Assembly (NCBI RefSeq): GCF_000425145.1
Contig: NZ_KE384312.1
Span: forward strand, 186,001 to 250,000
Origin: Pedobacter glucosidilyticus DSM 23534
GTDB taxonomy: Bacteria > Bacteroidota > Bacteroidia > Sphingobacteriales > Sphingobacteriaceae
DNA: 64,000 nucleotides
Direction of reading: 5' to 3'
Shown: positions 15,615-29,282 of the stretch, piece by piece
Layout: each line of letters opens with the position of its first letter
Numbering within the stretch: position 1 is the stretch's first letter
Notes under the pieces: generated by a model
What the model was told of the DNA's origin: nothing
Seen by the model: only the letters and a program-made list of their open reading frames with translations
The model's database searches: none
Made by a program: the position numbers and the translations under genes

Positions 15615-17648
15615 TTATTTACTCTTTTTCAATAAAATCATAGAGCTGAAAGGCTTTAAAATAATAGAGGCATCAACTTTTTCGCCGTTAGGGTAATAAT
15701 AAATAGCGGCGTCTAAAGTATAAGTTTTATCCTCTTTAGTATCGTTTACAATAATCTCTGCTTCGGCGTTTTTTGCCCAATCGGTTAATGCAGTAACAGC
15801 TTTGCTATTTTCTTCTTGTTGATAAAAATTACGCCATTGCTCAAAAGTAAGATGCAATTTAGCATGCTCTGGTATTTGCTTGGTTTCAAAATAAATAGGT
15901 GTACTCGACTTGGTGTTGATATAAGTATTATGATCAAATTTACCAACCTGAAAAACTGGGCCTATAAAATTTTTCAAACTAAGTGCTTTTTGCGAAGGCT
16001 TATTGCTGGCAATGACATTTCCAGTATTTACGCAATCAAAAATTTTCCCAAGATTTCCCCACTCTGCATAACCCAGTCCTTCTTGGCAATTAAATACATG
16101 GTTGCCAATAAAGCTATTTTTAAAAGAAGCATCGTTATTAACCATGCCAGATGCGCCTGTGCTAATAATCGTATTATTAATTACTGTAACATCATTAGAG
16201 TTATTATCTAAATAAATCCCAAAAGCTAAATTAGGATTATCAGGAGTAGCCTCACTATCTCCAATGCTGTAGCGTACAATGTTATTTCTAAAAATAGAAT
16301 GATGAGTAGCGCTAGGTTGGGCGCCATAACAATATAAATTTGCCCCGTCATTTAAAGTTAAACTGCAATAATCAATGATATTATATTCAACCAAATTATT
16401 GTAACCATCAACCCTGATACCATTATAACCACAGCTATCTACCTTATTATAACTTACCACATTATGGTGTGCAAAAGTATTATCTATAGTTTTTTTTCGC
16501 TCGGTATTATAAATAAGAATACCTGTTGCGCCGTTTACTCCAGTAAAGCCTTGAGCTCTAACCAGCCCAATACGCCTTACAATATTATCAGAAATACTGA
16601 GATTATTGGGTTCTAAGGCAGAAATACCTTTTCCAAGGATATCTGTAATGCTATTCCCTTTGATGTTGCAGTAAGAAGATGCGCTATCCAATAAAATGCC
16701 CGCTCCATGTATATTTTTAAATTGATTATCCAATACCTGAATATTTGATACATGCCAACCACTGCCAACACCTGCTTTTTCATATTGTTCAAATGCAATA
16801 TCTTTAACAATAATGTTTTTAATATGATGATTAATAAAAACACCATAATGTTGGGTTACTGCCTTAATATTTTTTGGCGATTTACCTGCTGGCAATTGCA
16901 CCATTAACTTGTTGTTTTTCCAGCTCCATTCAAAAGCGGTATCTATCATTTGTGGTAAGCCTTCTAAATAAAAGCCATAACCCGCCTTAAACTCATACAA
17001 AGAGGTTTGTCCGTTTTTGGTCCTTTCAAAAAAACTTTTATCAATAAAATACCTGTCTTGTGGGCCCTGTATCACTAATGATTTCTTGTATTTGGCAACA
17101 GTTCTGGTTTCATAAACCCAATCAATGGTGCGTACTCTTAAAATAGCATCGTTCCAATAGCCATCTGGTTCCTGAAGACTTAAAGCACTTAAAGAATCTT
17201 TGCCAAATCCCTTATCTATTTTTAAAAAACCTTTATTGGGATATCTGGCAGGTGTAAACCTAAAATTGTTTTCAAAAACATCATAAATCTTAGTATTGAT
17301 GTAAGCTTCATAAATATTGTTTCCTACGGCTTTCCAGTTATGGATGGCTGTAGAACCTGTAAAAATAGGTTTTTCGCCCTGGCCATAAGCCGTAATTACA
17401 ATAGGCTTATTTGTAGAGCCAGATTGCTTAATATCTAGCATCCCTGTAAAGGTATCGCCTCTTTTAAAGAACAAGGTATCGCCCGGTTGTAGTTTAAGAT
17501 TTTTTAATCGGTTTAAAGTTTTCCAGGCGGATGCAGGCGATTTCCCATTAGCTTTATCATTTCCAGATTCAGAAAAGTAAAAGTTTCTGGCATAAGTAAA
17601 GTTGTAAATAAAACATACAAAGAAAATTGCTAAGACTAATTTTTTCAT
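15615..17648 (-). CDS. Secreted right-handed parallel beta-helix protein (possible polysaccharide lyase or glycosidase)
   Basis: 677 residues from the ATG at 17648, which opens a clean signal peptide (MKKLVLAIFFVCFIYNFTYA). A longer frame to 17696 adds an unlikely leader. The mature protein starts with YFSESGNDKANGKSPASAWKT-type sequence, a common entry to pectin-lyase-like beta-helices, followed by an N-terminal beta domain to about 280. About ten to twelve Asn-rich coils follow (NIIVKDIAFEQ, IRRIGLV, NGIRVDGYNNLVEYN, NNTIISTGASG) to about 560, then a beta-sandwich tail. Catalytic residues cannot be assigned, so the polysaccharide target is unknown. It is monocistronic and divergent from the M20 gene. 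Confidence 0.75.
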   Translation of the reverse strand: MKKLVLAIFFVCFIYNFTYARNFYFSESGNDKANGKSPASAWKTLNRLKNLKLQPGDTLFFKRGDTFTGMLDIKQSGSTNKPIVITAYGQGEKPIFTGSTAIHNWKAVGNNIYEAYINTKIYDVFENNFRFTPARYPNKGFLKIDKGFGKDSLSALSLQEPDGYWNDAILRVRTIDWVYETRTVAKYKKSLVIQGPQDRYFIDKSFFERTKNGQTSLYEFKAGYGFYLEGLPQMIDTAFEWSWKNNKLMVQLPAGKSPKNIKAVTQHYGVFINHHIKNIIVKDIAFEQYEKAGVGSGWHVSNIQVLDNQFKNIHGAGILLDSASSYCNIKGNSITDILGKGISALEPNNLSISDNIVRRIGLVRAQGFTGVNGATGILIYNTERKKTIDNTFAHHNVVSYNKVDSCGYNGIRVDGYNNLVEYNIIDYCSLTLNDGANLYCYGAQPSATHHSIFRNNIVRYSIGDSEATPDNPNLAFGIYLDNNSNDVTVINNTIISTGASGMVNNDASFKNSFIGNHVFNCQEGLGYAEWGNLGKIFDCVNTGNVIASNKPSQKALSLKNFIGPVFQVGKFDHNTYINTKSSTPIYFETKQIPEHAKLHLTFEQWRNFYQQEENSKAVTALTDWAKNAEAEIIVNDTKEDKTYTLDAAIYYYPNGEKVDASIILKPFSSMILLKKSK

Positions 17649-17858
17649 CGTTAATGGATAAAAGAAGATATATTTAATAAAGGTTATACAAAACAAATTT
17701 AAAGCTATAGCTATGCAGTATATTCACTGAAATTGACATTTTCTTAAACTTTTCTACATGATACATGCTCATAAATAGTATATCTAGTTTAAACTTTAGA
17801 TAAAATAGTTTAAAATAAATTTATAGCTTTTGATTTCTTTTACTGTAAATATAAAGAG

Positions 17859-19286
17859 ATGAAATTAGCTAGTTTATTATTGTTTACGATTATAAGTCAA
17901 CTTGCTATAGCGCAATATAAGCAAGCCGAGCGTCTTAAAAATCAATCGAGTTTAGATATTGATAAAAATTTTTCTATTTACAAAGCCGATGCTTTACAAA
18001 TCTATCATCATGCTGAATTAGGCTATCAAGAATATAAAAGTAGCGCTTTATTAAAAGATAGGTTAAGAAGTAATGGTTTTGTTATTGACACAGTTTTACA
18101 AATGCCTACTGCTTTTGTAGCTAGCTATGGTAGTGGTAAACCCGTTATCGCAATTTTAGCTGAGTATGATGCTTTACCCGGTTTCTCACAGCAGGTAAGT
18201 ACGGTAAAGCAGCCCAATCCTAAGCAAAGCAACGGGCATGCCTGTGGGCATCATTTATTTGGTGTAGGTAGTGTGGCCGCGGGTATAGAAATTAAAAAAC
18301 TGATAGCCCAAGGTAAGTTAAAAGGTACTGTAAAAATTTATGGATGCCCAGCAGAAGAAGGGGGAAGCGGTAAAGTTTACTTAGTTAGAGATGGTTTTTT
18401 TAAAGATGTTGATGTAGCCTTGCATTGGCATCCATCTGCCAGAAACAGGGTTATTACTACCGATGCTTTAGCAAACATCTCTGCTAAGTTTAGATTTAAG
18501 GGCGTTTCTTCCCATGCGTCTGCATCTCCACAAAGAGGTAGGAGTGCTTTAGATGGCGTTGAAGCTATGAATTTTATGGTGAATATGATGCGTGAACATA
18601 TCCCTCAAGAAGCAAGAATACATTACATCATCACAGATGGTGGTAAAGCCCCTAACGTAGTTCCAGATTTTGCAGAGGTATATTATTATGTTAGGTATCC
18701 TGATAAAGAGCAAGCAAGAGAATTATTTAACCGTGTGGTATCTTGTGCAAAAGGTGCAGCCCTAGGTACTGAAACTTCTGTGGAACATGAAATTATTGGC
18801 GGTACGCATGATTTACTTCTGAATATCAGTTTGGCAAAGCTGATGTATAAAAATCTGGAAATGGTAGGAGGAATTAATTATACAACAACTGAATTTTCTT
18901 TTGCTCAAGAGCTATCAAAAACCTTAAATAGAGAATTAATTGTGCCTAATAAAGTAGAAACATTTTCTTTGTTAAAAGAAAGTACCAATGGCAGTACCGA
19001 TGTAGGAGATGTGAGTTATACCATACCCACTGTAGGTGTAAATACGGCAACATGGGTGCCTGGCGTTGCTGCACACAGTTGGCAGGCAGTGGCTTGCGGA
19101 GGTACTGATATTGCTATAAAAGGAACTGTAAATGCCATAAAAACAATGGTTTATACGGCTATAGATTTATATACGCAACCCAAGCATATAGAAGCTGCTA
19201 AGTTAGAATTTAATCATGCGCTTAAAAATTATCAATACAAACCCTTATTAGGTGATAGAGCGCCTGCATTAAATTATAGAGACTAA
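17859..19286 (+). CDS. Secreted M20D-family amidohydrolase (AbgB / IAA-amino-acid hydrolase-like)
   Basis: 475 residues with a signal peptide (LASLLLFTIISQLAIAQ). The metal-binding site is visible: NGHACGHHLFG with H127, C129, H131 and H132, and the acidic pair in CPAEEGGSGK. A dimerisation (lid) domain at about 205-320 contains SSHASASPQRGRSALDG. Family members hydrolyse N-acyl or N-aryl amino acids, or aminobenzoyl-glutamate in the AbgB type; the export signal points to a periplasmic substrate. It ends 3 bases from the stop of the convergent AraC gene and shares the divergent promoter region 17649-17858 with the beta-helix gene. Confidence 0.82.
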   Translation: MKLASLLLFTIISQLAIAQYKQAERLKNQSSLDIDKNFSIYKADALQIYHHAELGYQEYKSSALLKDRLRSNGFVIDTVLQMPTAFVASYGSGKPVIAILAEYDALPGFSQQVSTVKQPNPKQSNGHACGHHLFGVGSVAAGIEIKKLIAQGKLKGTVKIYGCPAEEGGSGKVYLVRDGFFKDVDVALHWHPSARNRVITTDALANISAKFRFKGVSSHASASPQRGRSALDGVEAMNFMVNMMREHIPQEARIHYIITDGGKAPNVVPDFAEVYYYVRYPDKEQARELFNRVVSCAKGAALGTETSVEHEIIGGTHDLLLNISLAKLMYKNLEMVGGINYTTTEFSFAQELSKTLNRELIVPNKVETFSLLKESTNGSTDVGDVSYTIPTVGVNTATWVPGVAAHSWQAVACGGTDIAIKGTVNAIKTMVYTAIDLYTQPKHIEAAKLEFNHALKNYQYKPLLGDRAPALNYRD

Positions 19287-19289
19287 TGT

Positions 19290-20156
19290 TTATTGCCCAA
19301 AATTCTTTTGATAATCAAAAGGTGTTTTACCTGTGATAGATTTAAAGCATTTATAAAAGTTTGTTAAGTTATTAAACCCACTCTCATAACAAACTTGTGT
19401 AACTGATAATTTATTTTCAATCAGGAGTTTACAGGCATAACCTACCCTTATCTCTTTCAGGAAATCAGAAAATCTTTTTCTTGTTTTGGTCTTGAAATAC
19501 CTGCAAAAGGAGTTAGGACTTACACTGGCAATATCAGAAATTTCTTCTAATGTTATTTTCCTTTTAAAATTAGATGAACAGTAAGCATAAATTTTACTGA
19601 TATTATCTTTATCCTGACTTTCCATTTGTAAATCAAAACCTACAGAGGAAAGTAACCTATTATTTTTACCTTCTGCAATGGTATGCAAAAGGGTTAACAA
19701 CAAAATAATTCTTAATTCGCCATTAGAGTTTACCAAATCTTTCATCAAAGAAACAACTTTAGGCTTTATTTCTTTTGAAATGATAATGCCTCGTTTAGCA
19801 TTTATCAAAAGCTCCTTAATTTTTTTATTCTCAGGTAAATTGATAAAACAGTCTGACCAAAAATTGGTTAAAAAATGCGCTACTAAGGCTTCTGCTTTTA
19901 AATCTGCGCTATTTTGGAAATAGCTATCATCACACCTCCAATAATGCGGTAAATTGCTGCCAATAAGTAAAATATCGCCCTTTTTAAATCTTTCTATACT
20001 GTCTCCAACAAATTGTGTACCGTTTCCCTCTTTGATATAAATCAATTCAACTTCCGGATGATAATGCCATTTGTCATAAAAATAAGGTACAATATCATGC
20101 CTGATACTAAAAGAATAATATTCGGAGGGATTTATTTTAAGTAAAGTAGGCTTCAT
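19290..20156 (-). CDS. AraC-family transcriptional regulator with cupin sensor domain
   Basis: 288 residues. The N-terminal cupin is seen at about 25-80 (WHYHPEVELIYIKEGNGTQF, then GDILLIGSNLPHYW), a typical sugar-sensing fold of this class. The C-terminal double helix-turn-helix lies at about 185-285, with SVSPNSFCRYFKT for the first recognition helix and QVCYESGFNNLTNFYKCFK ending in GKTPFDYQK for the AraC signature. It is convergent with the M20 gene, so it is likely an activator of neighbouring carbohydrate genes, though no binding site could be identified. Confidence 0.88.
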   Translation of the reverse strand: MKPTLLKINPSEYYSFSIRHDIVPYFYDKWHYHPEVELIYIKEGNGTQFVGDSIERFKKGDILLIGSNLPHYWRCDDSYFQNSADLKAEALVAHFLTNFWSDCFINLPENKKIKELLINAKRGIIISKEIKPKVVSLMKDLVNSNGELRIILLLTLLHTIAEGKNNRLLSSVGFDLQMESQDKDNISKIYAYCSSNFKRKITLEEISDIASVSPNSFCRYFKTKTRKRFSDFLKEIRVGYACKLLIENKLSVTQVCYESGFNNLTNFYKCFKSITGKTPFDYQKNFGQ

Positions 20157-20462
20157 CTAATACGTTTAAAAATTGGCTAAATTTATTGTAGAATACGACT
20201 AATATAATATTAATTGTAATAAATATTTACAAGATATTTGTTACATCTATTAAATATAATAAATCATACCATTAACGCACATCAACTTAGAAATACCAAA
20301 GTTTTGAAAGCAAACATACATAATTTTAATATCGCATTATTAAACCATATACTATTTATAAAGGACTGTATTTTATACTACTGATTTACAAAATCATATA
20401 AAGCTTTAACAAGGCAGTTAGGTTTCTTGCTTATTTTAGTGAGTATTAAAATAACTATAAAC
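20157..20462. other. AT-rich divergent intergenic region, no gene seen
   Basis: This 306-base stretch lies between the starts of the AraC gene (leftward) and the NTF2-like gene (rightward). It is very AT-rich and must contain both promoters. No clear inverted repeat, RNA gene or ORF was found. A TTG at 20427 is in frame with the downstream gene but only adds a 12-residue leader in front of its signal peptide. Confidence 0.5.
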
Positions 20463-20909
20463 ATGAAACTTACCTCATTACTAACTTTAACGATTACACT
20501 TTTATTTGGTCTTAACTTAGCTTTTGCACAAACTTCTTTAGTAAACACAAATAAGCAAATTGTCCTTAACTTTTATAATGGTTTGTTTGGAGATAAGGAT
20601 TCTACCGTTATTGATAAATATGTGGTTGAAGATTATATCCAACATAACCCTAACGTAGCAGATGGTAAAGAGGCTTTTAAGCAAGCGACCAGAAAATGGA
20701 ATATTTACCATACACCTAAAAAGAAAATTGATATTGTTAAAGTTATAGCTGATGAAAATTATGTTGTTTTACATATTAGAGAACCTTGGCAAGATAAGGT
20801 TTTCTCTTTGGTGGAAATTTTTAGATTAGAAAACGGCATGATTAAAGAACACTGGGATATCAGGCAACAAGTACCTGCAACAGCGAAAAATAACCATCCT
20901 ATGTTTTAA
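20463..20909 (+). CDS. Secreted NTF2-like / SnoaL-type protein
   Basis: 148 residues from the ATG at 20463, which starts a good signal peptide (TLLFGLNLAFAQ). The mature part has the order VLNFYNGLFGDKDSTVIDKY, EDYIQHNPNVADG and REPW...IFRLENGMIKEHWD. That is the SnoaL-like family (NTF2 fold) often annotated as a predicted SnoaL-like aldol-condensation protein. In many members a His and Asp in the pocket act on polyketide-like substrates; here the periplasmic location and function are unknown. It is followed within 12 bases by the orphan rdgB tail that marks the left edge of the accessory island. Confidence 0.75.
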   Translation: MKLTSLLTLTITLLFGLNLAFAQTSLVNTNKQIVLNFYNGLFGDKDSTVIDKYVVEDYIQHNPNVADGKEAFKQATRKWNIYHTPKKKIDIVKVIADENYVVLHIREPWQDKVFSLVEIFRLENGMIKEHWDIRQQVPATAKNNHPMF

Positions 20910-20920
20910 ATTTTTATTTC

Positions 20921-20966
20921 CAGAACTCATTTAAATAATTGATGAGCTTTTCTACAGCCAAACCAA
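20921..20966 (-). pseudogene. Orphan 3' end of an rdgB gene (left boundary of island)
   Basis: Read on the minus strand, this stretch encodes GLAVEKLINYLNEFWK followed by a stop. It matches the C-terminus of the intact rdgB gene at 24836-25408 (GLAVEKLIHYLNGL, stop). The two DNA segments are in the same orientation, and over 41 aligned bases (from about 20924 and 24840) I count 34 identical. Several differences are synonymous, as expected for real coding relics rather than chance. No start or upstream part of the gene is present: homology stops where the first hairpin repeat begins. It looks like the displaced original end of rdgB. Confidence 0.75.
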
Positions 20967-20971
20967 ATATA

Positions 20972-21075
20972 GCGCAATATAGCCTAAGCCTGTGTTATAG
21001 CTTCTTATGCTTTCCTTGTATTTTTTTCATTTCATTTGTGTTAAATTAAGGCACAAGAAGCTTTTACCCGCTTGC
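20972..21075. repeat. Hairpin repeat, copy 1 of five
   Basis: The element reads from GCGCAATATAGCCTAAGCC on the left to TTTTACCCGCTTGC on the right. Inner arms AGCTTCTTATGC (20999-21010) and GCACAAGAAGCT (21051-21062) form a 12-base stem with one mismatch, closing a loop of about 40 bases. Copy 2 at 22052-22156 matches it through arms, loop and right end. The right edge is sharp: sequence after base 21075 is the interior of a truncated protein gene, whereas after copy 2 it is unrelated. Confidence 0.75.
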
Positions 21076-21762
21076 AGCACCCCTAGAAGCCGCTTAATGA
21101 CTGAAATTTTAGAGAAGACCGGACTGGTAGAACGAAGCGGTCAAGGTGTAGATAAGATATTCTCCATCACCCTATCTGAAGGTAAAGCAGAACCTGATTA
21201 TAAGAATTCAGATATGTTTCAGGTTTCACTTACCCTACGGACTGAAATTATTGAAAAGGCATTTCATGTTTTCGTAAGTCAATATCAAAACAGCGAGAAA
21301 GAACCAAAATTTGGCGTTGAGCAAATCATTACGCTTTGTAAAATCCGTAATAGCATTTTTCAGAACCTTAAAGCTGAAATTGTAAGTCAGTTAGAAAAAT
21401 CAGGGTTGATTGAAAAAATATCAGGGCATACTAACAGATATACTTTATCTCAAGAATACCATGCACTGGTAAATGATGGTTTGAAAATTGGCAAAAGGTA
21501 TTTGATAAAAGAGATTGAAATTCTACTTCTGTCATTACAAGGAAACGCTTTGAAGATTGGTGATTTAGAAGGTTTATTAAAAGAATCCCTATCAAGAAAT
21601 CAGATAAACTATTTGAAGATGAAACTAATGGAAGATAATATACTGAAAGTAGAAGGTAAAATAAAAGGTGCTCGATATTCTATTACTGATAAATATGCTG
21701 ATTTAAGAGGTGATGTTTTACTAAGTGCAGTTATTGCAGAACTAAGAAGTAAATATGAATAA
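21076..21762 (+). pseudogene. 5'-truncated AlbA_2/Schlafen-type ATP-binding transcriptional regulator
   Basis: Coding resemblance starts exactly at the edge of hairpin repeat copy 1. STPRSRLMTEILEKTGLVERSGQGVDKIF is the C-terminal HATPase_c_4-like segment of the AlbA_2 (Schlafen-like) ATP-binding regulator family, where the usual form is PRNP-LxE-GLVERxGxGxDKIF. It is followed by about 170 residues of winged-helix-like sequence ending in LRSKYE. The AlbA_2 domain and the start of the gene are missing. An ORF can be drawn from 21007, but its first 23 codons are translated repeat. These regulators often travel with mobile or defence DNA. Here it is most likely a relic; an internal ATG at 21097 could give a short product. 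Confidence 0.7.
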
Positions 21763-22051
21763 GTAGCTAATTATCTATATGCTGTTAATGATTCTCTGTA
21801 TGCTAAAAATAAAATAGCTAAAGAAGATGCTGCTATTCTTTGTATTGCAGCTACTAGAGATAGTGCTAGTAATACGTAAATACTTAAAAATACTGATTAT
21901 CAGCTTTTTAAAAATAAACTTATCGGGGTTTCAATTCTCTGTATCGGGTTCCGGATTCTCTGTATTCATTCCGGCACTTGGAAATTCAATTCTCTGTATC
22001 GGGTATCCAGTTCTCTAAAAATTAAAAAGTAATGAACACCCACAAGATGGC
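21763..22051. other. Non-coding stretch with an ORF tail and ATTCTCTGTAT repeats
   Basis: Directly after the truncated regulator's stop, the same frame continues open for 38 codons (ending ...CIAATRDSASNT, stop near 21879), an unassigned tail. At about 21934-22015 there are three spaced copies of ATTCTCTGTAT, mostly followed by CGGG or CCGG and each about 20-33 bases apart, plus a degenerate fourth. Another copy sits at about 21791 inside the ORF tail. I recognise no RNA or binding-site family here. Confidence 0.45.
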
Positions 22052-22156
22052 TAGAATATAGCCTAAACCTCTGTAATAGCTTCTTGTGTTTTCTTTACAT
22101 TTATTTCCATTTCATTTGTATAATTATTAAGGCACAAGAAGCTTTTACCCGCTTGC
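22052..22156. repeat. Hairpin repeat, copy 2 of five
   Basis: The left part is AATATAGCCTAAACC. Inner arms AGCTTCTTGTGT (22078-22089) and GCACAAGAAGCT (22132-22143) pair over 12 bases with one T-G wobble. The right part TTTTACCCGCTTGC ends at 22156, the same edge as copy 1. It begins 49 bases downstream of the stop of the minus-strand lipoprotein gene 22205-22996, so in that gene's reading direction it is a 3' element. Confidence 0.75.
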
Positions 22157-22204
22157 TTTGGTTTTTATTGCGTTATTGGAGTAGAAATAGAAACTTCCAA
22201 TTCT

Positions 22205-22996
22205 TTATTTATTATTTATTAGCTTCAACTTCGTAATTTTAATATCATTGTCTTTTATTTTTATTAAAACATCATTTGTCTTTTTGGTATCTTCTTCTGA
22301 AAAAGCAAAATCAGTCACTCTAATACTGCCATCTAAATTAATATTGAACAGCCTAAACCAATTAAAGAAATAAGCTTCTTCCCAAAAAAACACAGTTATA
22401 ATCTTTACATCTTTTGTTTGTTTATTATAAAATAGCAGGTTGCCAACCTGTAAGAAAAATTGATCTGATTCGCCGTAATTTTTGGGCCTATTGATTGGAT
22501 AAGATAAATAGAAAACTTCATAGTTACCCATTTTCGGGAGTCGATAACTATAATGTGTAGACTTTTGCAATTCGTTTTCAGTTCTATTATTTAATGGTAT
22601 ATATTCATAATTTTTAATTTCGGGTAATTGATAATTTTTATGGATACGATTTAGTTTTAAAAAACAATCAATGATATCATTCATGGATTTCTGAAATTTT
22701 GTTTGAGCAGAATCATCAAATGGTGGAGTTATTTCCCATTCGATAGGAAAATTTGTCTTTTCAAACATTTCACATCCAAAGGGCAGTACTTTTACATCTT
22801 TATTATAAACTGAAATCAATGTATCAGGATTAGATATTTTGGCATCAACGCTCAATAAGTTTTTCTTAGTTGATTTTAAAGTATTCTCATTGGAATCTTC
22901 GACACTTTGAGTGCCTTTCATTGCTTGATTGTTCGGCGAAGTACAAGAAATTATTAATGTTAGTATTAATAATATGTAAGAAATGCTTTTAGTCAT
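22205..22996 (-). CDS. Lipoprotein of unknown function
   Basis: 263 residues. The N-terminus MTKSISYILLILTLIISC is a lipoprotein signal with acceptor Cys18. A Ser/Asn/Lys-rich linker (to about 55) leads to a mixed alpha/beta domain with many aromatic residues (FPIEWEITPPFDD, YEVFYLSYP, TVFFWEEAYFFNWFRLF). I do not recognise the family. It is the leftmost of three leftward lipoprotein genes in the island and is unlike the other two in sequence. It is flanked by hairpin repeats on both sides (copy 2 after its stop, copy A before its start), so it has the layout of a single-gene cassette. Confidence 0.7.
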   Translation of the reverse strand: MTKSISYILLILTLIISCTSPNNQAMKGTQSVEDSNENTLKSTKKNLLSVDAKISNPDTLISVYNKDVKVLPFGCEMFEKTNFPIEWEITPPFDDSAQTKFQKSMNDIIDCFLKLNRIHKNYQLPEIKNYEYIPLNNRTENELQKSTHYSYRLPKMGNYEVFYLSYPINRPKNYGESDQFFLQVGNLLFYNKQTKDVKIITVFFWEEAYFFNWFRLFNINLDGSIRVTDFAFSEEDTKKTNDVLIKIKDNDIKITKLKLINNK

Positions 22997-23318
22997 GACT
23001 ATTATTTATTTTAATCAAAAAGTTCGTATAATGAATATGCCCTTAATGCAAACTGGGTTTTCCCTTCTCTTGCAAGTATGCAGCCTTAGCCATGTGCGGC
23101 TATGTACTTGTGCATTGTAAAAAGAACTTTTCATAATCATCAATTTATTTTTTAATATTAATGCCTCCTCATTCAAAGGCATAAGTACTCTTCCCTCATT
23201 CCCCTGCTGCATACTTGTACCAAACTGGGTGTTGACAATGGGGAGATGAAGATATATGACATAGTTATTGCTATTTAATAATAATATTTTATGTATGTTG
23301 TGACTTCCAACATGGATA
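22997..23318. other. Inter-cassette region: hairpin copy A plus a plus-strand ORF tail
   Basis: No intact gene. It contains hairpin copy A (23071-23219), the direct repeat CAAACTGGGT just outside both of its ends (about 23050 and 23221), and a short plus-strand frame ending KLGVDNGEMKIYDIVIAI then stop near 23275. A very similar tail (NVDNGEINISDINL, stop) occupies the same place beside copy B, which shows that the repeat, the tail and the following lipoprotein gene were duplicated together. A 65-codon minus-strand frame at 23015-23212 is translated repeat. Confidence 0.5.
23071..23219. repeat. Hairpin repeat, copy A (longer form)
   Basis: Outer arms TGCAAGTATGCAGC (23071-23084) and GCTGCATACTTGTA (23206-23219) pair at 13 of 14 positions. 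Inner arms GTACTTGTGC (23104-23113) and GCATAAGTAC (23179-23188) pair over 10 bases with one G-T wobble. The left interior CAGCCTTAGCCATGTG and right interior AAAGGCATAAG align with AGCCTAAGCCTGTG and AAGGCACAAG of copies 1 and 2, so the long and short forms are one family. The inner stem differs from copies 1/2 (TTC/GAA replaced by GTA/TAC) while keeping pairing. Confidence 0.7.
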
Positions 23319-23765
23319 TTATTTATTTGGATATACTCTTATATTTGTATACCTATTTCCTAAGAAAAATGTCAATGTGTCGTATTCTAATACGTAATCT
23401 CCTGCTAAAGAATCTAAATTACCCAATTTCAATATATCGGCCTTTGATTTATACTCTTGTCTGGAAACGATAGTTAAAAATTTAATTTCTTTTGTATAGG
23501 GTATATAACAAATAGATAAGCTAATAGTAGAGTCTCCACGAAACTTCTCATAAATCCGATAAGAATGGCTTCCTCTTGTCTTGAGTACTCCTTTCTGATT
23601 CTTGAATGGATCATGGTCGGAATAATTATTACCTAAAATATAAGTAACTTCATCGATATTTTTACCTATCAATGAAGGTATGTCAAATACGACTTTAGGC
23701 TCTGGATAAAAACAACCTGCCAGGAATAAAAAAGAAGAAAGCATTATTAAAATTTTATTTTTCAT
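23319..23765 (-). CDS. Small lipoprotein, paralogue of the 24182-24649 product
   Basis: 148 residues from the ATG at 23765, which opens a lipoprotein signal (KNKILIMLSSFLFLAGC, acceptor Cys18). A longer frame to 23828 only translates hairpin repeat B. The mature N-terminus VVFDIPSLIGKNIDEVTYILG matches VVFDIPSLIGKDINEIVRIS in the neighbouring lipoprotein, and both end in a basic VYPx motif (IRVYPNK / VNVYPKY). Domain family unknown; the fold may resemble small periplasmic binding domains of roughly 130 residues. Regulation and function cannot be read from the sequence. A role as immunity lipoprotein is possible but unsupported. Confidence 0.72.
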   Translation of the reverse strand: MKNKILIMLSSFLFLAGCFYPEPKVVFDIPSLIGKNIDEVTYILGNNYSDHDPFKNQKGVLKTRGSHSYRIYEKFRGDSTISLSICYIPYTKEIKFLTIVSRQEYKSKADILKLGNLDSLAGDYVLEYDTLTFFLGNRYTNIRVYPNK

Positions 23766-24181
23766 ATAAAAATTATTTATATAATTTCGGAAACTCTTCT
23801 CGGGCGCAAAGTATGCAGCCTTAGCCATGTGCGGCTATGTACCTGTGCATTGTAAAAAGAACTTTTTATAATCATCAATTTATTTTTAATACCTCTTCAA
23901 AGGCACAAGTACGCTTCTCTTATTGCCCAGCTGCATACTTGCGCCAAACTGGGGGATACAGAAGAAGTACTTGAATACCGTTTAATTATTAAATTTTTGT
24001 AATAGACATTATTTAGCAAACCACTAATGCCAGACGATATAAAATTAAGCTCCTCCGGTACTTGGTTAGGAGAAACTAATGTTGATAATGGGGAAATAAA
24101 CATATCTGACATAAATCTATAGCTATTTTAATTTTTAATAAATGTCAATCATTCAAATAATATTCTAACAGAAAAAAATTG
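23766..24181. other. Inter-cassette region: hairpin copy B plus a plus-strand ORF tail
   Basis: Contains hairpin copy B (23803-23945) and then, on the plus strand, a frame ending KLSSSGTWLGETNVDNGEINISDINL-like sequence and a stop near 24110. The last part repeats the tail beside copy A. About 110 bases between the repeat and the shared tail (roughly 23957-24070) have no counterpart next to copy A. No intact gene is seen; a 71-codon minus-strand frame at 23897-24112 runs through the repeat and is not credible. Confidence 0.5.
23803..23945. repeat. Hairpin repeat, copy B (longer form)
   Basis: Outer arms GGCGCAAAGTATGCAGC (23803-23819) and GCTGCATACTTGCGCC (23930-23945) are complementary except for one extra A on the left arm. 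Inner arms GTACCTGTGC (23839-23848) and GCACAAGTAC (23903-23912) pair with one C-A mismatch. The interior CAGCCTTAGCCATGTGCGGCTATGTAC is shared with copy A, as is the loop sequence. It lies between two paralogous leftward lipoprotein genes. Confidence 0.7.
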
Positions 24182-24649
24182 TTAATATTTTGGGTATACA
24201 TTCACTGCCGTAAAATCATTAGTGTAACCGCCATTCACATCATTACCTTGGATATCATATTCGCTCCAGCCGTCGCTAAGAGTGATTCTGTATTTACTAG
24301 AATTTTTATCTAAATTTCCTATTAATAACAAATCTTCTATCTCTGCCATCGAAAAATTTAATTGTCTAAAGTTTTTTAAATCTGAGCAATAATTAAAAAG
24401 TTCAGCTTTCTTTGTTTTATCATTATATTCAATAAACAGAAACCAACCATTTTTTCTACAGGTGAAAATTTTATAACCTTCTTTATCGGAATCAGTCAAT
24501 CTTTTATTTTCTGCCGAAATTCTAACTATTTCATTAATATCTTTACCTATTAATGAAGGAATATCGAATACAACTTCACCAACTATCGGTTTCGGCTTAC
24601 AAGAAACCAAGAAAAATGAGCTCATGATTAAAAAATAGAATATCCTCAT
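24182..24649 (-). CDS. Small lipoprotein, paralogue of the 23319-23765 product
   Basis: 155 residues with a lipoprotein signal (MRIFYFLIMSSFFLVSC, acceptor Cys17). The mature start contains VVFDIPSLIGKDINE, which aligns with the neighbouring lipoprotein; the rest has diverged (IFTCRKNGWFLFIEYNDKTK, then YRITLSDGWSEYDI). The pair arose by duplication of a unit that includes the hairpin repeat and a plus-strand ORF tail. Family unknown. It is the cassette closest to rdgB, from which it is separated by 186 bases containing the truncated hairpin copy 3. Confidence 0.72.
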   Translation of the reverse strand: MRIFYFLIMSSFFLVSCKPKPIVGEVVFDIPSLIGKDINEIVRISAENKRLTDSDKEGYKIFTCRKNGWFLFIEYNDKTKKAELFNYCSDLKNFRQLNFSMAEIEDLLLIGNLDKNSSKYRITLSDGWSEYDIQGNDVNGGYTNDFTAVNVYPKY

Positions 24650-24766
24650 ATCAAAGTTTTCCAGAAATTTTACACTTAAAATTCACTTTCGAAATAAATG
24701 GCACATATCCTTTTCTGTGTTGCAGAACCCACTAAGCAGAAAATCCTTTATCGACCCCAAGGATAA

Positions 24767-24815
24767 CACAATATAACCTAAGCCCATATAATAGCTTCTT
24801 GTGCTTTCCTTGTAA
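24767..24815. repeat. Truncated hairpin repeat, copy 3 (left half only), at the right edge of the island
   Basis: CACAATATAACCTAAGCCC followed by ATAGCTTCTTGTGCTTTCCTTGTA matches the left half of copy 1 almost base for base, but the loop and the complementary arm GCACAAGAAGCT are absent. The sequence switches at about 24815 and reaches the rdgB stop codon 21 bases later. So this copy cannot fold like the others. Its position mirrors copy 1, which touches the orphan rdgB tail on the other side of the island. Confidence 0.65.
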
Positions 24816-24835
24816 TAAAAAACGAGGCTTTACCT

Positions 24836-25408
24836 TTATAAACCATTTAAGTAATGAATAAGCTTTTCTACAGCTAAACCCCTGTGGCTGATATTATTTT
24901 TACTCGCCATATCCATCTCTGCAAAAGTAATGGGGTAACCTTCGGGTTCAAAAATAGCATCATAGCCAAAACCGCCTGTACCGGCTCTTTCTGTGCGAAT
25001 ATTCCCATTTACAATACCTTCGAATAAAATTTCTTCTCCGTTTAATATCAAAGAGATAACGGTTCTAAAACAAGCCTTGCGATTGCCCTCGTTTTCAAGT
25101 TTCTCTAGCACTAAATCGATGTTTTTTTCAGTATCTCTACTTCCGCTGTACCGGGCAGAAAATACACCTGGTTCTTGGTTAAGGGCTTCAATTTCTAAGC
25201 CTGTATCATCAGCAAAGCAGTTTATTTGGTAATTATCAAAAACATAATGGCTTTTAATAGAGGCGTTTTCTTCTAAAGTTAACCCAGTTTCGGCAATATC
25301 CTCAAAGCAACCAATATCAGCCAAGCTTAAAACCTTAATCTGTTGGTTTATTTTTGATTGTACTTCTGCTACTTTGTGTGCATTATTTGTGGCAAATACC
25401 AATTGCAT
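24836..25408 (-). CDS. rdgB: dITP/XTP pyrophosphatase (RdgB/HAM1 family)
   Basis: 190 residues, full length for the family. Substrate and metal motifs are visible: FATNNAHKVAEV at residues 5-16 (TxxNxxK), FADDTGLEIEAL with the catalytic Asp pair, GVFSARYSG, GTGGFGYDAIFEP and SHRGLAVEKL near the end. The enzyme hydrolyses non-canonical purine triphosphates such as dITP and XTP to monophosphates, protecting DNA. The last 14 codons are repeated as an orphan fragment at 20921-20966, so the 3' end served as, or was copied at, an insertion boundary. The upstream gene 25421-26023 ends 12 bases before its start; the two are probably cotranscribed. Confidence 0.95.
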   Translation of the reverse strand: MQLVFATNNAHKVAEVQSKINQQIKVLSLADIGCFEDIAETGLTLEENASIKSHYVFDNYQINCFADDTGLEIEALNQEPGVFSARYSGSRDTEKNIDLVLEKLENEGNRKACFRTVISLILNGEEILFEGIVNGNIRTERAGTGGFGYDAIFEPEGYPITFAEMDMASKNNISHRGLAVEKLIHYLNGL

Positions 25409-25420
25409 AGCTTTTTAATA

Positions 25421-26023
25421 TTAGAAATTTTTCAATTCGTTCCAGTAGATAGTTTTCTTTTTTACATCGGTATCTAACAAAGGTAAAGCCCATGTGCCTA
25501 ATATTTTTACCCCCTCAAATTCTCCGGCTTTGTTTGCTATAATGCCTTGTATTTGTAGTGATTTTGGGTCTATTCCAAACGTTAAAATTTTGTTACAAGC
25601 AAAATATTCTTTTAAATCTTTAAAGGCTAAATCCGCATAACTATTGGTGTTTAAGATGGCAATATCATGTAAATCAAGTTTTTTAGCAGCCAAAATTTTT
25701 AAAAGAAAAGCTAAGTCTTTATCGTTTATAAACTGATGCGTTTTATCGTTTACAATAATGAGCAGATATTTATTGTTATCACCTAAATAATTAAAAACTG
25801 GTTTGCTTGCAACAGCTTGTGGTTTTGATGCTTCTGGCGTTTCTATTGGCTTATTTTGTAAAACGGGTATAACAATTTTACTTTCTACAGCTGTTTCAGG
25901 TTCTTCTTTTGGGGTTATAATAATTTCTGCATTTTGGATGTTTTCAACAGGTTCAATAACATATAAATCCTCATTCAAAAGAATACTTAATGCTAAAGGG
26001 TGGGCTGTATTTAAAGAATCCAT
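25421..26023 (-). CDS. Conserved-looking hypothetical protein; possible DNA polymerase III psi / uracil-glycosylase-like fold
   Basis: 200 residues. The first 75 are low-complexity, rich in Glu, Pro and Val (KEEPETAVESKIVIPV...). The C-terminal 120 have the order KYLLIIVND, INDKDLAFLLKILAAKKLDLHDIAILN, KILTFGIDPKSLQIQG, GVKILGTWALPLL, and a final KKKTIYWNELKNF. That pattern (a helix after ND, a hydrophobic strand ending in fGxDP, a later strand with L-x-x-L, and K...W-x-x-LK) resembles the DNA polymerase III psi subunit and its UDG-like superfamily. This is a fold guess from memory, not a recognised domain hit. It lies directly upstream of rdgB on the same strand. Confidence 0.5.
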   Translation of the reverse strand: MDSLNTAHPLALSILLNEDLYVIEPVENIQNAEIIITPKEEPETAVESKIVIPVLQNKPIETPEASKPQAVASKPVFNYLGDNNKYLLIIVNDKTHQFINDKDLAFLLKILAAKKLDLHDIAILNTNSYADLAFKDLKEYFACNKILTFGIDPKSLQIQGIIANKAGEFEGVKILGTWALPLLDTDVKKKTIYWNELKNF

Positions 26024-26108
26024 AAGGGCAAATTTAGGGTTAAATATTGTTAAAAATTTTAAAATGCTTCATGTTTTACATAAAAAGACTTTACATTCGT
26101 TTAAATTC

Positions 26109-26966
26109 ATGAATAACTATATACTTCGCATTTTTTGTTTGGCTATTTCAGTTGCTTTTGCCTCTTGTGGCAAGTTTACCAGCAATGAAGAGCAGCCCAT
26201 AGCAAGAGCCTATGATAAATATCTTTACGCTAAAGATATCGAAGGTATAGTCCCTCCAAATATCCATGGTAATGATAGCATAGCCATTGTAAGAGGCTTT
26301 ATAGACCAATGGCAGCATGATATGGTCTTACAACATCAAGCAGAGGAAAACATCCAAGTTGATGAAAAATATATCCAAGAGCAGCTTGAAAATTACCGTA
26401 AATCTCTCATCCGTTTCCAGTACGAGCAAGAATTAATTAACCAAAAGTTGGATACCACTGTTACCGAAGAAGAAATTGCGAAATATTATGAAGAGCATAA
26501 GAAGAACTTTCAATTAAAAAAACCGATATTAAAGGTCTCTTACATCAAACTTAGTGATAAGGCGCCTAAAATAGATATGGTGAAAAAGCTTTTTACCTCT
26601 AAAGATGTTAGAGACAGAGATTTACTTGAGAAATATTGTTTTAAGTACTCGCCAGCATTTTCTTTAATGGATACCAGCTGGCATTATATTGATGAACTGG
26701 AGAAAACACTACCCATATCAAAAATTGGATCGTATAATTACGAAACATTAAACCGTATTTTTCAGATTTCTGAAAATAATACATTATATCTCCTAATTTT
26801 GCGAGGCTCTAAATTTCGCGATAGCTTATCGCCTTTAGCGTTTGAAAAAGAGAATATTAAAAATTTAATACTAAATCAGCGTAAGCTGAAGTTAATAAGC
26901 CAAATGGAAAGAGAAGTTTTTCAGGAGGCTCAAAAAAATAACGAATTAGAAGTGTACAAGAAATGA
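26109..26966 (+). CDS. Periplasmic peptidyl-prolyl isomerase-like lipoprotein (SurA-N-like)
   Basis: 285 residues from the ATG at 26109, which opens a lipoprotein signal (ILRIFCLAISVAFASC). The frame is open further upstream but that part overlaps the divergent gene. A helical SurA-N/PpiC-like chaperone region spans about 30-150 (DKYLYAKDIEGIVPP, FIDQWQHDMVLQHQAEENIQVDEKY, TVTEEEIAKYYEEHKKNF); the rest is a degenerate parvulin-like domain. It overlaps the next gene, surA-like, by 4 bases (ATGA), a common Bacteroidota arrangement for outer-membrane protein chaperones. Confidence 0.75.
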   Translation: MNNYILRIFCLAISVAFASCGKFTSNEEQPIARAYDKYLYAKDIEGIVPPNIHGNDSIAIVRGFIDQWQHDMVLQHQAEENIQVDEKYIQEQLENYRKSLIRFQYEQELINQKLDTTVTEEEIAKYYEEHKKNFQLKKPILKVSYIKLSDKAPKIDMVKKLFTSKDVRDRDLLEKYCFKYSPAFSLMDTSWHYIDELEKTLPISKIGSYNYETLNRIFQISENNTLYLLILRGSKFRDSLSPLAFEKENIKNLILNQRKLKLISQMEREVFQEAQKNNELEVYKK

Positions 26967-28324
26967 AAAATTATTTAATAATAGCGCTACTTTTAGTAAG
27001 TAACAGCCTTCTGGCACAAAAGAAGGTAATAGACAAAGTAGTTGCCGTGGTGGGCGATAATGTGATTTTACAATCTGAGGTTGACCAACAATATGCGCAA
27101 TACTTAGTGCAAGGTACCAAGCCAGACCCTGGTATTAAATGCTATATTTTACAAAATATGTTGAGCCAGAAACTGCTATCGCAACAAGCCGTTATAGATT
27201 CTATTACGGTTAATGATGATGAAGTGGATGAAGAAATCGACAGAAGAATGCGTAGATCTATTGCTAACGCAGGTGGGCAAGATAGGTTAGAAGAATTCTT
27301 AGGGCGCTCTGTTTTACAGTATAAAGATGAAATCAGACCAGATATCAGAGAGCAATTGGTAGCTCAAAAAATGCAGGCTAAAATCACTGAAAAGGTAGAG
27401 GTAACGCCTTTAGATGTAAGAAGATTTTTTAACGACATTCCTAAAGACTCGCTTCCTACCTTTAATACCGAAGTAGAAGTAGGAGAATTGGTGGTTTATC
27501 CCGAGCTAACTAAAAAAGAGAAAGAATTTTATAGAGACAAAGCAGAAGCTTTACGTTTAAGAGTTAAAAGTGGCGATAACTTTGCAACCTTAGCGAGGTT
27601 ATATTCTCAAGATCCTGGCTCTGCAGCCGATGGTGGAGAGCTACCTTCTTTTGATAGACAAACCATGGCAAAAGAATTTACAGCCTGGGCTTTTAAACTC
27701 AAAGAGAAAGAAATGTCTCCTGTTTTTGAAACAGAATTTGGTTTCCACTTTTTAGAAGTTCTAGAAAGAAAAGGCGAGCAAGTAAGAGCAAGACATATTC
27801 TCATTATACCAGAAACAACTCCGGCTTCTTTAGACAGAGCCAAAGTAGAAATAGACTCTATTTACAAAAAAGTTATAGATAAAAAGATGGATTTTTCTAC
27901 AGCCGCATCTCTGTATTCTGATAATAACGATACCAAGTATAATGGTGGGATGATTTTAAATTACGAGAGTTCTAATAGAACTACATTTATTCCTACCGAT
28001 AAGTTAGACCCATCAGTATTTTTGGTTGTAGATACCATGAAAGTTGGATCTTATTCTAAGCCAGAAATTTTTACTGATGCCAGAGGTAAAAAAGGCTATC
28101 GTTTTTTATATTTAAGATCTAAAACCCCACCTCATAAAGCTAATTTAGAGCAAGATTTACCAAAACTTAAAGAAGCTGCTTACGAAACTAAAGTAAATAA
28201 GGTAGTAAGCGAGTGGTTTGAGAAAAGAAGAAAAGCAAGTTATATTAAAATAGATAAAGAATTTCAATCTTGTGATGTTTTGCAAGAATGGATAACCAAA
28301 CCAGTAACAGCTAATAATGAATAA
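26963..28324 (+). CDS. surA: SurA-type periplasmic chaperone with two parvulin PPIase domains
   Basis: 453 residues with a signal peptide (LIIALLLVSNSLLAQ). The SurA N-domain starts at DKVVAVVGDNVILQSEVDQQY (about 21-41). The first PpiC domain, about 172-272, contains SQDPGSAADGGELPSFDR and FETEFGFHFLEVLER. The second, about 277-390, contains RARHILI, SDNNDTKYNGGMI and YRFLYLRSKTPPHKANLEQD. SurA assists folding of outer-membrane proteins in the periplasm. It overlaps the upstream lipoprotein gene by 4 bases and the downstream MoxR gene by 8 bases, so the three form a tight operon. Confidence 0.88.
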   Translation: MKNYLIIALLLVSNSLLAQKKVIDKVVAVVGDNVILQSEVDQQYAQYLVQGTKPDPGIKCYILQNMLSQKLLSQQAVIDSITVNDDEVDEEIDRRMRRSIANAGGQDRLEEFLGRSVLQYKDEIRPDIREQLVAQKMQAKITEKVEVTPLDVRRFFNDIPKDSLPTFNTEVEVGELVVYPELTKKEKEFYRDKAEALRLRVKSGDNFATLARLYSQDPGSAADGGELPSFDRQTMAKEFTAWAFKLKEKEMSPVFETEFGFHFLEVLERKGEQVRARHILIIPETTPASLDRAKVEIDSIYKKVIDKKMDFSTAASLYSDNNDTKYNGGMILNYESSNRTTFIPTDKLDPSVFLVVDTMKVGSYSKPEIFTDARGKKGYRFLYLRSKTPPHKANLEQDLPKLKEAAYETKVNKVVSEWFEKRRKASYIKIDKEFQSCDVLQEWITKPVTANNE

Positions 28325-29282
28325 ATATCAGTCAGAAGTAGAGGCTATTGATGCATTATGTTTATCCTACAAAGAAATCAGGAAAGAGATTTCTAAGGTG
28401 ATAGTAGGGCAAGACAAAGTTGTTGAAGCAGTATTAATATCTGTTTTTAGCAATGGCCATTGCTTATTGGTTGGTGTACCAGGTTTAGCTAAAACTTTAT
28501 TGGTACAAACCGTCTCCAGGGTACTAGATTTATCTTTTAACCGAATACAATTTACACCAGATTTAATGCCTTCTGATATCATTGGAAGCGAAATTTTGGG
28601 CGAAGAAAGAGTTTTTAAATTCATTAAGGGACCTGTGTTTGCCAATATTATTTTGGCCGATGAGATTAACAGAACGCCACCTAAAACGCAGGCTGCTTTA
28701 TTAGAAGCTATGCAAGAGAAAGCTGTTACTGCCGCTGGTGTTACACATGCTTTACCAAAACCTTTCTTTGTGTTGGCAACTCAAAACCCTATAGAACAAG
28801 AGGGTACATATCCTTTACCAGAGGCCCAACTAGATAGGTTTATGTTTAATGTAAGTTTAGATTATCCTTCTTTTGAGGATGAAATAGCTATCGTAAAAAA
28901 TACAACAGGTACCAAAGTTCAGGATTTGAGAAAAATTATCAATGCCGAGCAGATTACCTATTTCCAACAATTGGTAAGAAATATTCCGGTAACAGACCAC
29001 GTGGTAGAATATGCCGTGGCGATGGTAGCCAAAACCAGACCACAAGGAACCATGGCTACCGATGCCATAAAGAAATATGTAACTTGGGGCGCAGGCCCTA
29101 GAGCTTCTCAGTTTTTAGTGGTAGGTGCTAAATGCCATGCAGCTATCCATGGTAAGTATTCTCCAGATATTGAAGATGTACAAGCCGTAGCAACCGCAAT
29201 TTTAAGACATCGTATGGTAAAAAATTACAAAGCCGAAGCAGAAGGTATAAGTATAGAAGATATTATAGAAGGCCTGTTTTAA
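28317..29282 (+). CDS. MoxR-family AAA+ ATPase
   Basis: 321 residues. Walker A is GVPGLAKTLL (53-62), Walker B IILADEINR (111-119), sensor 1 ATQNPIEQEGTYPLPEAQLDRF; the lid domain continues to the C-terminus. MoxR ATPases remodel or insert cofactors into partner proteins, often with a VWA-domain protein. No such partner is in the window: the following gene is on the other strand. The start overlaps the surA-like stop region by 8 bases, linking it to envelope protein folding, although a functional tie is inference. Confidence 0.92.
   Translation: MNKYQSEVEAIDALCLSYKEIRKEISKVIVGQDKVVEAVLISVFSNGHCLLVGVPGLAKTLLVQTVSRVLDLSFNRIQFTPDLMPSDIIGSEILGEERVFKFIKGPVFANIILADEINRTPPKTQAALLEAMQEKAVTAAGVTHALPKPFFVLATQNPIEQEGTYPLPEAQLDRFMFNVSLDYPSFEDEIAIVKNTTGTKVQDLRKIINAEQITYFQQLVRNIPVTDHVVEYAVAMVAKTRPQGTMATDAIKKYVTWGAGPRASQFLVVGAKCHAAIHGKYSPDIEDVQAVATAILRHRMVKNYKAEAEGISIEDIIEGLF

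Follow-up and report, generated by a model that had tools for sequence, protein, structure and literature searches.

What are the hairpin repeats that separate single genes in one accessory region of Pedobacter glucosidilyticus DSM 23534, and what kind of enzyme put them there? The window that we analysed, a stretch of 64,000 nt (contig C3, positions 186001-250000, of a 4.02 Mb draft genome in 62 contigs), contains five such repeats, here called c1, c2, A, B and c3, next to leftward lipoprotein-like genes. The original prediction took them for single-strand recombination sites comparable to integron attC, in a cassette array served by an unknown recombinase. Our results indicate that the repeats are very probably non-autonomous mobile elements of the REP/REPIN kind (REP, repetitive extragenic palindrome), whose parent is a RAYT transposon, probably of the Bacteroidota group 5 (subclass 2.6 TnpA-REP). 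RAYTs, the REP-associated tyrosine transposases, are Y1 HUH enzymes and act on single strands.

Anatomy of the Elements

All five repeats were confirmed as related, four as longer copies and one as a half copy, all on the same strand; the copies are longer than the about 105 bp and about 145-150 bp given initially. A and B are 97% identical over a 79-nt block and 86% over a 58-nt block, while over 58 nt c1 matches c2 at 69% and c3 at 83%. Several sequence readings were corrected as well: c2 is AGCCTAAACC, c3 is AACCTAAGCC, A is AAGGCATAAG, and the left inner arm of c1 is CTTCTTATGC. A full element measures about 140-230 bp. Its left half has GGCGCAAG as outer and CTTGTGCC as inner arm, its right half GGCACAAG as inner and CTTGCGCC as outer arm, and between the halves is an A/T-rich spacer whose length varies. 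The outer tips carry CCC at 37 of 49 left ends (12% by chance) and GGG at 55 of 72 right ends (17% by chance). Alignment and pair counts both reveal two inverted REP-like units around a spacer, the arrangement by which a REPIN is recognized. The halves are also found alone, c3 being a lone left half.

RAYT Genes Between the Same Two Ends

A search for Y1 proteins in six genomes revealed a 186-aa RAYT in G007, located between a right half on its 5′ side and a left half on its 3′ side. This protein has 44 homologues in the genus, 30 of them with loci, and an element was present within 1.5 kb in seven of these 30 (L181, L182, L183, L184, L186, L203, and L208), the RAYT being broken or partial in L203 and L208. 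In at least three loci the gene has element sequence at either side: L181 and L203 have the right half upstream of it and the left half downstream, and L186 has most of an element 5′ and a left half 3′. Among Y1 loci not matching the G007 RAYT, an element was found in 1 of 18, at a distance of about 1.2 kb. Seen from the elements, a RAYT or a piece of one lies within 70 bp in 9 of 49 element loci (one of them, L230, had been chosen for its RAYT), compared with any RAYT match in 2 of 33 control loci. Four of the five element-flanked RAYTs scored above the cut-off of NCBIfam NF047646 (REP-associated tyrosine transposase); the IS200 model NF033573 gave 22-36 bits on the RAYTs, which does not pass its cut-off of 55.

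Fragments point the same way. At the end of the RHS array in G013, the first 29 codons of a RAYT (76% identical) begin no more than 29 bp after an element. On contig C48 of the source genome, an element runs into the start MSRKYKF, as in RAYT P0001, and this DNA matches the element-plus-RAYT start of G002 (122 nt, 74%). To judge from their sequence, the window copies look like the two RAYT-flanking ends minus the gene.

In the parent transposon, the RAYT gene occupies the place that the short A/T-rich spacer has in the element. If it works like E. coli TnpA-REP and IS200/IS605, the enzyme would bind both ends in single-stranded form, make a cut close to the foot of each and rejoin the strands; copies could thus spread in trans, and may still be doing so. 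The one-per-gene appearance of the window would then reflect elements arriving again and again at the 3′ ends of genes in a plastic locus, together with duplication and recombination of accessory genes there. In supposing that the fold matters and that DNA is processed as a single strand, the original prediction had pointed to the right field.

The source genome has three Y1 genes of its own (L039, L040, and L041). As candidates for the parent they were rejected, since the focal family lies beside none of them; by eye, each is near small palindromes unlike this family.

Folding and Covariation

Folded as single-stranded DNA, c2 and B did better than all 200 dinucleotide shuffles (z −3.8 and −3.7); the fold of a full relative on contig C4 was not outstanding (z −1.4, with 17 of 200 shuffles as good). 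A compensatory change from TTC/GAA to GTA/TAC had been proposed to preserve pairing between the two inner arms. The change is real, but only 8 of 18 full copies keep the pairing across these arms, the commonest form being a combination of both arm types. Within the halves the same positions do pair, 23 with 52 in 17 of 18 copies and 226 with 257 in all 12 copies with letters there, with two pair types each. Pairing within each half therefore fits the compensatory change better than pairing across the halves.

Comparison of the two structures with shuffled alignments gave a similar picture. For the two-hairpin model, cells changed on both sides numbered 14 vs. 6.1 in shuffles and the score was 0.171 vs. 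0.121, values reached in none of 500 shuffles. For the core of a single long hairpin they were 8 vs. 6.7 (147 of 500 shuffles) and 0.121 vs. 0.120 (259 of 500). A wider one-hairpin structure had 16 such cells vs. 11.1 (33 of 500). Since the copies are related, few independent changes lie behind these values. Covariation within each end is partly borne out, and we regard the element as two ends, which may also pair with each other.

Distribution, Orientation, and Placement

DNA searches detected copies on several contigs of the source genome and, among 41 genomes including this one, in seven, all in the genus Pedobacter. A covariance model was built from 18 full copies and used to score 150 first-pass candidates per genome, with up to 30 matches listed for each. 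It matched in 11 of the 18 Pedobacter genomes searched; among the matches listed, 22 were in the source genome, 30 in G010, 14 in G013, and 10 in G012. As some matches are one copy read on both strands and scoring was limited to these 150 candidates, these numbers are neither copy counts nor complete. The clusters have one element per small gene or module, as anticipated, but there are scattered single copies too. In 55 loci including the window, nhmmer (E ≤ 0.01) delimited 93 non-overlapping elements in 49 loci and none in the other six (four chosen for RAYT, two for HAM1). The copies are dispersed and intergenic in a rough set of open reading frames (ORFs) of at least 100 aa, which gave 91 of the 93 elements neighbours on both sides.

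The orientation bias of the elements is notable. Read in the RAYT sense, 62 of the 91 lie between co-directional genes, 18 are convergent, 6 are opposed to both neighbours, and 5 are divergent; the upstream gene is co-directional in 80, at a median distance from its end of about 122 bp. With one vote per locus (tandem context, hand-coded) the bias was 31 of 36, and 24 of 29 after merging orthologous-looking loci. The window elements in this sense run in the direction of the leftward genes, and one element lies just 3′ of each of the genes at 22205-22996, 23319-23828, and 24182-24649 and of HAM1. The expected association with lipoprotein genes thus holds for all three and extends to HAM1; c1 is placed after a rightward SnoaL-like gene. 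REPs elsewhere are also mostly downstream of genes (PMC3733652; this and the sources cited below were available in part), and the 3′ placement is therefore not new. In G013, the better-scoring reading was on the − strand for every copy among the matches listed. By sampled GC skew, replication of this genome starts near 3.1-3.2 Mb and ends near 1.1 Mb, which sets four of five loci in the direction of the fork and the remaining one close to the origin; L115 runs against the direction of its genes and with the fork. Five G013 loci are too few to separate replication from gene direction as the cause of the orientation.

A co-directional upstream gene in 80 of 91 cases, and the excess of 62 to 6 for elements running with both neighbours over those opposite to both, also suit a 3′ regulatory or terminator element acting on the RNA. 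Such a role would be the main reason why copies are kept, with mobility historical, and is compatible with a RAYT origin. However, many copies are halves or degenerate, no common function was seen among the neighbours, and Rfam gave no match at gathering scores in window positions 17000-29000. We therefore consider this role unlikely as the main explanation.

Several results weigh against a RAYT-derived element with two ends. With the present model, 23 of the 30 RAYT-homologue loci are without an element. The draft source genome has no intact RAYT of this clade, and its nearest homologue, on C15, is 33% identical and lacks an element. No clean empty site was found when the flanks of eight elements were compared with five genomes; most flanks were repetitive or one-sided. 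On the structural side, covarying pairs (4 vs. 4.2) and further pair types (13 vs. 13.4) in the two-hairpin model were not above shuffles, paired cells in the wider one-hairpin structure outnumber those of 499 of 500 shuffles, and copy B alone folds with its outer arms paired.

Comparison With Known REP Systems

Compared by published description, the family is best classed as REPIN-like elements that belong with group 5 (subclass 2.6) RAYTs. Subclass 2.6 of TnpA-REP corresponds to RAYT group 5 and is mostly from Bacteroidetes, and its genes have unusual secondary structures at their flanks that recur elsewhere in the genome (PMC6006769). The proteins agree in length (about 184-186 aa), and the HuH-to-Y gap is 84 in P0001 (HIH at 60, YIHNNP at 144) vs. 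a subclass median of 82 (PMC6006769). The motifs NH[LIV]H, WQ, and YIH[QN]NP, as well as flanking structures without a GT[AG]G tag, are described for the subclass (PMC6006769), and the element-flanked RAYTs match these short motifs only in part. Among four read by eye, NHVH occurs in three (P0001 has SHIH), WR replaces WQ in all four, and YIHNNP occurs in two, the others having YLHNNP and YLHENP. Of 18 full copies, 11 have GTAG in the left half, within the hairpin rather than at its foot, and one has GTAG or CTAC in the right half.

A REPIN is a REP doublet that forms a hairpin (PMC3116915). The present family is alike in its two inverted end units, variable spacer, tie to a RAYT, and singles as remnants, but it is longer (140-230 bp), forms a separate hairpin at each end, has far fewer copies, and has the RAYT between its two ends (PMC3116915). 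It resembles TIRtron/TIRYT, whose repeats share the motif GGGGWSAS, in that a RAYT-like gene stands between inverted repeats belonging to a dispersed family (PMC3733652). Group 5 RAYTs with unusual hairpins had been noted before and hardly described (PMC6006769); one such family can now be given with its parent gene, two-ended anatomy, and one-orientation habit behind genes.

Inverted outer ends with C/G-runs and a size of 140-230 bp would befit an ordinary miniature inverted-repeat transposable element of a double-strand (DDE) transposase with terminal inverted repeats; as RAYT genes lie inside the same two ends in several genomes, this origin is highly improbable.

Elements in Accessory-Gene Arrays

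Small-gene units separated by elements, in uniformly oriented clusters, were observed in several species. In the RHS toxin arrays of G013 and G010 (L102 and L211), RHS-core pieces with a variable tip, together with the small genes downstream of them, are closed off by an element, which stands behind most RHS modules. In G012, two elements enclose a Gp49/helix-turn-helix toxin-antitoxin-like pair. Synteny breaks that coincide with element ends, given as examples from reading rather than as a count, are the stop at the C-run of c3 in comparison with G010, L103 at 10165 vs. the source genome and at 11180 vs. G013, and L221 at 5359 and L113 at 6619, both vs. G010. At the HAM1 locus, c1 and c3 are common to the window and G010 and the genes between them are partly different; in G012 and G013 this locus has other genes and no element.

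After masking of the elements, direct repeats of 50 bp or more bracketed 13 of 49 element-centred 6-kb segments vs. 4 of 99 controls (Fisher p 1.3e-4), the controls coming from one genome and the element loci not being independent. In L221, a 126-bp gene end is doubled around an element and its cargo; G010 has a single copy and no cargo. A gene segment found between two elements in G012 (L104) recurs beside an element in G014 (L118) with 66% identity over 781 bp and in the same orientation relative to the element, no other homologous gene being present in both loci. This single candidate might represent a gene-plus-element unit on the move.

Integron attC sites likewise work as folded single strands in same-orientation arrays of small genes, and have the R′/R″ core site RYYYAAC / GTTRRRY. 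An integron-like array, in which a site-specific tyrosine recombinase acting at the folded element would insert and excise a gene together with its element, could account for the uniform clusters with one element per small gene or module, the synteny breaks, and the segment shared by L104 and L118, but it is hardly credible given RAYT genes between the same ends, scattered single copies, no covariation across the long hairpin, and 18 PF00589 matches in the source genome, G010, G012, and G013 with none less than 10 kb from a listed copy (draft genomes, same-contig links only), the nearest being about 18 kb from a half copy on C6 of the source genome. The family thus differs from attC in having no linked integrase and a transposase gene inside the same ends; the attC core was not seen in the conserved parts of the element alignment, where no dedicated motif scan was made. 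Of the proposed cassette array, the small-gene units and their partly variable content between species stand, but the unknown integron-like recombinase and its consistent linkage are not supported. The spread of copies over many contigs and the tie of the family to a single RAYT clade are largely the two outcomes that the original prediction had named as speaking against it, and a lead to a new integron is removed as false.

The RAYT-derived elements may either build the arrays or merely sit in them. It is conceivable, though doubtful, that RAYT ends serve as joints of a slow cassette system. Same-orientation elements flanking accessory genes would then act as composite single-strand transposons or as exact points of breakage and homology, and a RAYT would move or stack genes for toxins, immunity proteins, antitoxins, and lipoproteins at gene 3′ ends, in many cases with part of that 3′ end doubled. 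If true, an integron-like outcome would come from an HUH transposase, and the lining up of orphan toxin-immunity modules would have an enzyme. Immunity-gene arrays in Vibrio are described in a V. cholerae study that reports no evidence for an integrase (PMC5361080). On RHS orphan modules with REP (PMC10210955) and on REP/RAYT in Pedobacter, the accessible portions of the literature held nothing on point.

Genes and Junctions Around the Window Elements

TABLE 1. Elements and neighbouring genes in the window (element strand as aligned to the model; the RAYT sense is the opposite strand).
Feature	Position	Strand	Remarks
Second copy of HAM1 3′ end	20913-20964	−	77% over 52 nt
Element c1	20964-21075	+	Left half complete, right half truncated, right end replaced by gene fragment
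Element c2	22042-22184	+	Full, outer ends degenerate; 3′ of leftward gene 22205-22996
Lipoprotein-like gene, 263 aa	22205-22996	−	No family match at cut-off
Element A	about 23064-23234	+	Full; right-half hairpin about 23178-23221
Lipoprotein-like gene, about 148 aa	23319-23765	−	ORF listed to 23828, start 23765 more likely; distant paralogue of 24182-24649 gene
Element B	23801-23958	+	Full; left-half hairpin about 23803-23848, right-half hairpin about 23902-23945
Lipoprotein-like gene, 155 aa	24182-24649	−	76% identity over 136 aa to same-locus gene in G010
Element c3	24757-24815	+	Left half only, 3′ of HAM1
HAM1-like nucleoside triphosphate pyrophosphatase	24836-25408	−	Right border of array

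The 3′ end of HAM1 is doubled (20913-20964 and 24829-24880), bracketing the whole array, and this is common to G010; it appears as if cargo had been set into the 3′ end of the gene. An open frame at 21007-21762 begins within c1 and reads on into the C-terminal portion of an AlbA/RecG-like ATPase (PF13749), which looks like a 5′-truncated gene joined to c1. A TTCTCTGTATCGGG-like motif occurs in several copies within 230 bp at 21786-22017. For the 155-aa lipoprotein-like gene, an AlphaFold2 model from four sequences reached a pLDDT (predicted local distance difference test) of 78, with 4h0a as the best PDB match (E 3e-3); we draw no function from this predicted fold.

Two observations concern loci outside the window. 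In L219:4523-7230 (contig C7 of the source genome), a two-gene unit encoding a 188 aa protein with a weak DUF6252 match and a protein of about 100 aa is repeated in tandem, with one element before each copy. In L111:6381-6833, L116:5851-6320, and L119:6471-6897, a left half is followed by the same roughly 430-bp sequence, which is part of another dispersed repeat.

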